From Pelagibacteraceae bacterium AG-426-L23 (GTDB lineage Bacteria; Pseudomonadota; Alphaproteobacteria; Pelagibacterales; Pelagibacteraceae), in contig QCNU01000001.1 in assembly GCA_003213115.1 (NCBI GenBank), positions 372,001 through 436,000 on the forward strand: a stretch of DNA of 64,000 bases, in the 5' to 3' direction. The translations under genes and the position numbers were made by a program. The notes below the pieces were generated by a model. It made no database searches, had not been told where the DNA came from, and was given only the letters and a program-made list of their open reading frames with translations. Positions 15,210 to 19,458 of the stretch are shown piece after piece; within the stretch, counting starts at the first letter, position 1, and every line of letters begins with the position of its first letter.

Positions 15210-15282
15210 TTGACATGAATCTTAAATTAATTAATGTTTACTTTAACAAACGAATCATAAAGATTTGTTTAAAAAATGGGAG
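15210..15282 (+). promoter_or_regulatory. Promoter, leader hairpin and SD of the 22-aa basic peptide gene
   Basis: A consensus TTGACA box lies at 15210-15215, with a weak -10 (TAATGT, about 15232-15237) after 16 nt. The predicted leader contains a 9-bp hairpin: AAACGAATC (15248-15256), 5-nt loop, GATTTGTTT (15262-15270), with one G-U pair. A GGGAG Shine-Dalgarno site follows at 15278-15282, 6 nt before the ATG. The mini-gene therefore has its own complete expression unit. The -10 is the weakest part of the call. Confidence 0.55.
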
Positions 15283-15288
15283 ATAAAG

Positions 15289-15357
15289 ATGGCTAAACGT
15301 AGAAAAAAAGCTAAAAAGAAAAAAAAGACTAAAAAAAGAAGAAGAAGAAGAAGATAG
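15289..15357 (+). CDS. 22-residue extremely basic peptide
   Basis: ATG to TAG gives 22 residues, of which 18 are Lys or Arg. The others are Met1, two Ala and one Thr, there is no acidic residue, and it ends in six Arg. A good SD (GGGAG), a hairpin leader and a strong terminator 15 nt after the stop argue that it is a real gene. It recalls protamine-like or tiny ribosomal proteins (bTHX-like), but I see no specific match, so the function is unknown. Binding to rRNA or DNA is the natural guess. Confidence 0.72.
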   Translation: MAKRRKKAKKKKKTKKRRRRRR

Positions 15358-15371
15358 TTTTTTTTAAAACC

Positions 15372-15413
15372 AAACGCCCTTTTTAATTCATAAGCTAAAA
15401 AGGGCGTTTTTTT
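15372..15413. terminator. Strong intrinsic terminator between the basic peptide gene and carD
   Basis: A perfect 14-bp stem (15372-15385 with 15396-15409, core CGCCC/GGGCG), a 10-nt loop and a T-run to 15413 on the plus strand. It ends the basic peptide transcript. On the minus strand the same hairpin follows the carD stop with a poorer U-tract, so it probably serves both convergent genes. Confidence 0.92.
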
Positions 15414-16095
15414 ATACTTCTGCTAAATTTTGATTTCTTCCTAAAGCTTTATCCATTTTTCTTTGAACGTCTTCAGGCTTAATCTTTAATACAGCTTCAA
15501 ACTCTGACTTGAGCCTTTCGTATGCTTTTTCAAAGAGTTGTCTTTCGCTATATGACTGATCTGCGATGATATCTGAATTTTTGTTTAAATCTTTTACTAC
15601 CTCGGCTAACTCATAAATTTTTCCCGAATTTATTTTTTGGTCATATTCTTGTGCCCTTCTACTCCACATAGTTCTTTTAATTTTAGGCTTACTTTTTAGA
15701 ATAGAAACACATTTATTTATTTGATTTATTGTTGCTATAGGTCTTAAATTAGACTGTTGGTTTATAGGCACCGTTAAAGTTAGTTTCTCTTTTTCAATTA
15801 AGATTTTATAAAACTGAATATCAATTTGGCCAATTTTTGCTTTTTCAACTGATAAAATTTTACCAACCCCGTGCTTTGGATAAACAACATAATCTTTAAT
15901 ATTGTATTGCCTTTTCTCGGTAGGTTGTTTTTTTACTTTTTTTATCTCAATTTTTTCTGTATCAGAAAAATTACCTGTTTTTTTCTCAACTAATTCAGAT
16001 TTATCCTTTATTTTTAGTTCCTTGGCTTTACTTTTTTTAATCTTAGGTTTTTTTGGTTTTTTACCTTTTTTAGTTTTTTTACCTTTTTTTTTCAT
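15412..16095 (-). CDS. carD: CarD-family transcription regulator with Lys-rich N-terminal tail
   Basis: RNA-polymerase-binding regulator that stabilises open promoter complexes at stable RNA and other promoters. The CarD/TRCF N-terminal domain begins about residue 64 (YNIKDYVVYPKHGVGKIL). The helical C-terminal domain contains RTMWSRRAQEYDQKINSG and AYERLKSEFEAVLKI. The first 60 or so residues are a low-complexity lysine-rich tail. The frame is open to 16134, but I choose ATG 16095 because it follows the fdxA stop by 4 nt with a GGTAAG-like SD, whereas the upstream ATG lies inside fdxA without one. Confidence 0.88.
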   Translation of the reverse strand: MKKKGKKTKKGKKPKKPKIKKSKAKELKIKDKSELVEKKTGNFSDTEKIEIKKVKKQPTEKRQYNIKDYVVYPKHGVGKILSVEKAKIGQIDIQFYKILIEKEKLTLTVPINQQSNLRPIATINQINKCVSILKSKPKIKRTMWSRRAQEYDQKINSGKIYELAEVVKDLNKNSDIIADQSYSERQLFEKAYERLKSEFEAVLKIKPEDVQRKMDKALGRNQNLAEV

Positions 16096-16099
16096 AAAT

Positions 16100-16441
16100 T
16101 TACTTACCAGGTTTTTCCGAAAAATATTTTTCATGTTTATTTTTCACCTCTTTAAACTCCTCTGCCTCAGGAAGAGGATCTTGTATTTTTGTAATTCTTG
16201 GCCATATTGCAGAATATTTTTTATTTAGCAATAGCCATTTTTCTTTGTCTTTTTCATTATAATCATAATCAGAAACTATTGCATTAACGGGGCACTCAGG
16301 TTCACAAACTCCACAATCAATGCATTCGTTTGGATTTATAACTAACATATTTTCACCTTCGTAAAAACAATCAACAGGACAAACTTCAACACATGTCGTG
16401 TGCTTACATTTAATACATTCATCCTTAACAATATACGTCAA
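16100..16441 (-). CDS. fdxA: 7Fe ferredoxin
   Basis: Small electron carrier with one 3Fe-4S and one 4Fe-4S cluster. Cysteines lie in [18 protein letters not shown] (residues about 9-25) and [15 protein letters not shown] (about 40-54), the FdxA pattern. The remaining 60 residues form the extension typical of alphaproteobacterial FdxA, giving 113 in total. Its start overlaps the end of the TerB-like gene by 4 nt. FdxA next to carD is a known alphaproteobacterial order. Confidence 0.94.
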
Positions 16442-19304: not shown

Positions 19305-19458
19305 TTTTGTGTCAGATATTTTCTTTTATACTATATATAGATTAGCATTGAGAACAAAGTAAGATTAAAACATGACCGAATCAATTTGTCAAATGTTCTA
19401 ATTTAATATTTTAAAGATTTAAATGGACTTAAAACCCACACTCCCCGTATAGTTAAAA

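Follow-up and report, generated by a model that had tools for sequence, protein, structure and literature searches.

We have found that a frame of only 22 codons in the genome of the SAR11 bacterium Pelagibacteraceae bacterium AG-426-L23 (assembly GCA_003213115.1) is a real, unannotated protein-coding gene. The window that we analyzed is a stretch of 64,000 nucleotides (contig QCNU01000001.1, positions 372,001 to 436,000), and the mini-gene, which encodes the peptide MAKRRKKAKKKKKTKKRRRRRR, occupies positions 15289-15357 of its forward strand. On balance, sequence comparisons make it probable that the mini-gene stands on its own and encodes a minimal, DNA-condensing polycation of the histone-H1-tail type, with a promoter site methylated by CcrM and read by GcrA and a terminator in common with the convergent carD gene. 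This probably gives SAR11 cells a DNA-packing protein that ranks among the smallest known.

A conserved expression unit of 22 codons

The mini-gene lies within a compact unit at window positions 15210-15413. Sequence and fold calculations bear out the original prediction that it is framed by a consensus -35 box, a 9-bp leader hairpin, a GGGAG Shine-Dalgarno sequence and a strong terminator. The -35 box TTGACA (15210-15215, forward strand) is invariant in an alignment of 27 loci, and TTGACA or TTGAC is positioned 38-42 bp upstream of the leader sequence CGAATC at every locus where it was found. A probable -10 element, TAATGT (15232-15237, forward strand), follows after a 16 bp spacer; its position shifts slightly between genera in the same alignment. 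The arrangement points to a sigma70-type promoter with a predicted transcript start near 15245. The leader hairpin AAACGAATC-ATAAA-GATTTGTTT (15248-15270, forward strand) is located at or just past this predicted start and has nine pairs, one of them G-U, with a folding energy of -7.2 kcal/mol (z -4.2) that none of 200 shuffled sequences equaled. Beyond it lie the Shine-Dalgarno sequence GGGAG (15278-15282, forward strand), again invariant in the 27-locus alignment, the ATG at 15289 and the stop codon at 15355-15357. The unit is closed by a conserved terminator (15372-15413), whose hairpin (15372-15409) and T-tract fold with -17.5 kcal/mol on the forward strand (z -5.2) and with -19.2 kcal/mol on the opposite, carD strand. 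Since the two genes converge on this structure and it can fold on either strand, it is probably common to both, a small correction to the original description. A simple promoter and terminator scan of the window had listed neither signal, the -10 element being weak and the terminator having a 10-nt loop.

The upstream neighbor of the mini-gene encodes an AMP-binding acyl-CoA ligase (PF00501; 13402-15078, forward strand). The convergent neighbor is carD (15412-16134, reverse strand), which encodes a CarD/TRCF RNA-polymerase-binding protein (PF02559, PF21095) and is followed by fdxA. The CarD frame adjoining the mini-gene has a Lys-rich N-terminal extension (KKKGKKTKKGKKPKKPKIKKSKAK; 15960-16134, reverse strand) that falls outside the CarD domain models.

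As originally described, 18 of the 22 residues are Lys or Arg, none is acidic and the final six are Arg; there is no proline and there are only two alanines. This composition, together with the conservation of the whole unit in relatives, shows that the frame is not a product of chance, since we compared 4503 short ATG frames, drawn from 798 kb of this genome, and the mini-gene alone has a K+R content of at least 57%. In all 178 complete loci, with 97 distinct coding sequences among them, the frame is preserved along with its start and stop. They vary between 20 and 41 residues in length by in-frame changes only, and after Met1 contain nothing but K, R, A, T, P, S and G. Between close pairs of sequences, AAA-AAG changes (304) and AAA-AGA changes (151) are frequent and AAA-GAA changes do not occur, so that there is no Lys-to-Glu change among the 455 scored at AAA codons. 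The ratio pN/pS is 0.11 across the whole set and 0.13 for 35 independent sister pairs. Every complete locus retains the frame while the 3' arm of the leader hairpin drifts between genera, the opposite of the lost frame within a preserved RNA structure that the original prediction had named as its refutation. The mini-gene thus has its own expression unit, and the peptide that it encodes is real and conserved.

Within the genus, a DNA search detected the whole unit in 29 of 37 genomes, that of the window included. A covariance model of the leader matches 120 of 197 genomes of the order and none of the genomes sampled from elsewhere in the class. When GTDB species genomes were scanned for the pattern, 120 loci matched, and the 80 that were listed with titles are all from Pelagibacteraceae, Pelagibacterales single-cell genomes or Candidatus Pelagibacter, that is, from SAR11. 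A class-wide search with the long form of the protein gave no matches but missed known relatives as well, and is therefore uninformative. Gene order is almost completely fixed, with a convergent carD at 170 of the 171 loci with room for it and the acyl-CoA ligase gene upstream at all 145. In the 20 unit-less genomes tested, carD was undetectable in 18, about 200 bp from a contig end in one (G110) and represented by a partial match only in another (G193). Absence of the unit is thus mostly a matter of incomplete assembly, since a missing unit coincides with a missing or cut carD. Two other candidate interpretations were discarded: a phage origin, as no phage record matches, and a second tandem copy, suggested by weak extra matches about 190 bp upstream in some relatives, which proved to be the A-rich end of the ligase gene when positions were compared by hand.

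The leader hairpin and its CGAATCA core

The invariant core of the leader is the heptamer CGAATCA (15251-15257), which reads TGATTCG on the reverse strand and is identified by its conservation and its intergenic enrichment. It is retained in the same genus, in other genera of the family and in the sister family. Its first six letters, 38-42 bp downstream of the start of TTGAC, never change and are nearly always followed by A, even where CGAA, or most of the site, falls outside the stem. The hairpin arms hardly vary in the genus of the window and among Pelagibacter-like genomes, variation there being found in the loop. This invariance stems partly from the search patterns used, and the covariance-model search also recovered loci with altered outer pairs. 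Covariation in g1 and g6 is uninformative, the arms being constant apart from G-U/G-C exchanges. In g5, g7 and g8, by contrast, the 3' arm differs without losing complementarity, and at two pairs both partners have changed (U-A to A-U and G-C to A-U), from which we conclude, by sequence comparison, that the hairpin is under selection. In the genus of the window the second arm reads GATTTG, leaving a single GANTC site. In g5 and g8 (loci L227, L228, L230-L233 and L245) an upstream CUCC segment pairs with the Shine-Dalgarno sequence, which suggests an extra translational control or switch of the longer H1-like forms in these groups; this pairing is absent in the genus of the window, where the Shine-Dalgarno sequence is largely free. 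Rfam covariance models detected three tRNAs in the window and nothing at the mini-gene, and none of the Pelagibacter RNA motifs of Meyer et al. 2009, including the four extra ones, is reported at carD (PMC2704228). The weaker second matches of the leader model (L089-L094) belong to a different, strongly conserved leader in Pelagibacter-like genomes (GATAGTCCTTAAAAACCGGGAGCTAAAGATGGCTAAAAAG..), which usually opens a frame of no more than 8-24 codons ahead of sequence encoding ..FFKYKGFMKKKGHRPVTRVKNPEP.. and looks like a leader peptide or RNA element.

CGAATCA is the complement of TGATTCG, an instance of the extended GANTC motif (YGAKTCK) reported for GcrA activation in Caulobacter (PMC7987155). 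The promoter thus carries a conserved GANTC with GcrA-type flanks, as is found in GcrA/CcrM regulons. The original prediction saw the leader hairpin as a possible means of self-regulation. The hairpin is indeed maintained, but a DNA site plausibly accounts for the leader better than self-regulation by the peptide does, because the invariant core is a GANTC site with the flanks of GcrA/CcrM promoters. In Caulobacter activation the GANTC typically lies between -35 and -10 (PMC4287350). The SAR11 site is instead at about +6 relative to the predicted start, and for this reason repression or timing by methylation is as likely as activation.

The same heptamer is distinctive across the genome. We compared the intergenic fraction of TGATTCG with that of all 420 permutations of its letters in three SAR11 genomes, and it ranks 1 of 420 in each, with 6 of 14 occurrences intergenic in G062, 8 of 13 in 798 kb of G000 (the genome of the window) and 3 of 6 in 400 kb of G061, against a background of 4-5% intergenic DNA. 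With the mini-gene's own sites removed, binomial p values are 0.001, 1e-7 and 0.02, respectively. TGATTCG is enriched in both orientations and is also first among all NGANTCN heptamers, two of those that follow being, we infer, what tRNA T-loops would give. Sites are found just ahead of clpX and recA (G000 and G062), ftsK (G000 and G061), and clpP and acs (G062), no more than tens of bases from the gene starts, among them those at G000:C1:565055, 632959 and 272615 and G062:C1:385437, 537049, 537742 and 369186; ftsK was assigned by profile and the other four genes were named by us from their sequences. The genes preceded by TGATTCG are candidates for a SAR11 GcrA/CcrM regulon. GcrA (PF07750) is encoded in G000 and in 9 of 12 relatives. 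CcrM is encoded in the relative G062, as a protein with N6_N4_Mtase and RAMA domains that matches NF050803 below its curated cut-off; a scan of G000 that covered 798 kb detected no CcrM.

Two further elements were seen in the course of this survey. Beside the TGATTCG upstream of recA (G000:C1 around 565020 and G062:C1 around 385400) is the sequence GAAC-N7-GTAC, which we take to be a LexA-type box of Alphaproteobacteria. Another conserved CGAATCA (window 19377-19383; G000:C1:391377) lies inside GAACA...GTTC-like half sites between a divergently oriented SUV3-like helicase gene and an aminotransferase gene, and a similar element is seen in G061 and in the sister family (L234-L242).

Longer orthologues and possible roles of the peptide

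Orthologues of 31-91 residues with typical H1-tail repeats (KRKPAAKKKAPAKK) occupy this position in the family's other genera and in the sister family, and all of them carry the TTGAC, the CGAATCA leader and the convergent carD. Those of g7 have 31 residues, those of g5 have 36-38 from an inner ATG, and those of g8 have 34-58 (MAKKRKKAAKKK..KPAAKKKAPAKKRKPAKKKTAKKRKR); MAKKRKKAAKKKVAKKPAKRKVAKKKPAAKKRKPAAKKKAPAKKRKPAKKKTAKKRKR is an example from these three groups. The sister-family form, MEELKVIFAKARKKAKKKAAPKKK.., has 40-91 residues and an extra N-terminal MEELKVIF. These proteins have the low-complexity Lys/Ala(/Pro) repeats of an H1 tail, free of acidic or bulky residues and built in the long forms from KPAA-like units. 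Length varies with repeat number, from 20-41 residues in close genera to 31-58 in g5, g7 and g8 and 40-91 in the sister family, and the length of Hc2 likewise differs by repeat number (PMC2848022). The composition of the long forms matches that of AlgP/PhaF and eukaryotic H1 tails, and the KPAA-type H1-like tails of AlgP and PhaF bind DNA (PMC9239181). It is on these orthologues that the H1 likeness of the 22-mer rests, and they favor a nucleoid peptide among the products originally suggested. Pfam, NCBIfam and PDB yielded no family match to the peptide, and the curated profiles for H1-like proteins (Hc1/Hc2 in Pfam/NCBIfam) matched neither short nor long forms, although low-complexity sequence and the filters applied to it weaken such searches. 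Since the profile libraries recognize neither form, we assign the peptide to no named family. Its gene has the look of an H1-like gene that has shrunk, a direction of change suggested by the small size in the streamlined genera and not by a dated tree.

We propose that a peptide of 20-30 residues would be unstructured and bind DNA through charge alone, coating and neutralizing it and so helping to condense the small SAR11 chromosome. It would descend from, or share ancestry with, the longer (31-91 residue) K/A/P-rich H1-like protein found at the same place in other Pelagibacterales. RNA polymerase would start a short mRNA, of about 150 nt, from the sigma70-type promoter just upstream of CGAATCA, the 5' hairpin would probably protect or tune this transcript, and translation from the strong Shine-Dalgarno sequence would be followed by an end at the terminator common with carD. 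CcrM probably methylates the TGATTCG site and GcrA probably reads it; passage of the replication fork would then leave the site hemimethylated and change expression of the mini-gene. Digestion with trypsin would reduce so basic a peptide to pieces that escape identification, which could account for its absence from standard proteomes. Tentatively, one may go further and imagine a cell-cycle-timed switch of nucleoid compaction in SAR11, in which the hemimethylated site acts through GcrA to give a burst, or a stop, of a protamine-like peptide of 20-30 residues whose gene was shrunk from that of an H1-like protein by streamlining.

Other roles for the peptide have to be weighed against this proposal. 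Very small ribosomal peptides such as bTHX, bS22 and bL37 have 20-40 residues and a high K/R content and are thus alike to the mini-gene peptide in size and charge, and its strong Shine-Dalgarno sequence and terminator point to abundant expression. That the peptide is a ribosomal or rRNA-binding protein is nonetheless unlikely: lengths that range over 20-41 residues in the family and reach 91 in the sister family, through what look like repeat expansions, are not those of a peptide held in an rRNA pocket, no residue is position-specific apart from K, R and A, and a PDB search with a genus variant found no match, to known ribosomal peptides or otherwise, at E values up to 10, which for 23 residues is a weak test. 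The peptide might instead organize another polyanion, in polyphosphate granules, RNA condensates or at the membrane, much as AlgP, with its H1-like tail, associates with polyphosphate granules as well as the nucleoid (PMC9239181). We regard this as improbable, given that no polyphosphate gene is linked to the locus and that the genes sharing its site are clpX, recA, ftsK, clpP and acs. That the product is a secreted antimicrobial is hard to credit even though it is short and cationic and many predicted antimicrobial peptides in AMPSphere come from Pelagibacter (PMC10491242), for Ala is its only hydrophobic residue, it lacks a signal peptide, and the adjoining genes are the ligase gene and carD and not export or immunity genes.

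The remaining alternatives concern the RNA. The compact unit with a hairpin at each end is what might be expected of a non-coding small RNA whose frame is a by-product of purine-rich sequence. This reading, which the original prediction had kept as its alternative, is rejected on the grounds of the conserved frame and the codon test, with in-frame length changes only and a pN/pS of about 0.12, and we give it next to no weight. Better placed, but still doubtful, is the idea that the leader hairpin is an RNA regulatory element, either a 5' mRNA stabilizer or an autoregulatory site, to which the match with GANTC is incidental. A 5' hairpin is found in all groups, with compensatory pairs in g5, g7 and g8 and the CUCC pairing in g5 and g8. 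Against it, CGAATCA is constant even when mostly outside the stem, intergenic DNA is enriched for this heptamer in either orientation, and in the leader of the window the Shine-Dalgarno sequence is largely unpaired.

Relation to known systems

In the sea, SAR11 bacteria rank with the most abundant of all cells. Their genomes are very compact, yet they keep at this locus a complete expression unit for about 22 codons, and the gene escapes all curated family models searched. If the product is H1-like, it is among the smallest H1-like DNA-packing proteins, with sizes that can be followed from 91 down to 20 residues. Through the conserved TGATTCG, a putative GcrA/CcrM regulon in SAR11 gains a sequence handle, and cell-cycle control becomes testable there.

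The ribosomal peptides bTHX, bS22 and bL37 have fixed non-basic residues and fixed lengths, whereas the SAR11 family is free in length and uses only K, R, A, T, P, S and G. With protamine-like Arg-rich peptides the mini-gene product has in common an Arg run and near-pure positive charge, but its family is bacterial and Lys predominates in most members, and we know of no evolutionary link between the two. The likeness to the GcrA/CcrM promoters of Caulobacter (mipZ, podJ and ctrA P1; PMC3667746) consists in a GANTC with TGATTCG flanks near a sigma70-type promoter and, at the level of the system, in the presence of GcrA and CcrM genes in SAR11 and of sites near the division and DNA genes ftsK, recA and clpX. 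The systems differ in that the SAR11 site is downstream of the predicted start and not between -35 and -10, and in that an earlier survey reported the ctrA orthologue missing in Pelagibacter (PMC2877005). Compared with the bacterial H1-like K/A/P-rich proteins, that is, the AlgP and PhaF tails of Pseudomonas and Hc2 of Chlamydia with its Bordetella-type relatives, the SAR11 family has no folded N-terminal domain and no Pfam match, and the form in the window has just 22 residues, mostly Lys and Arg, and is fixed beside carD. What the family shares with them are low-complexity repeats of Lys, Ala, Pro and Arg, a length that varies by repeats as in Hc2 (PMC2848022), a basic part free of acidic residues and, in the long orthologues, the KPAA-type units of AlgP (PMC9239181).
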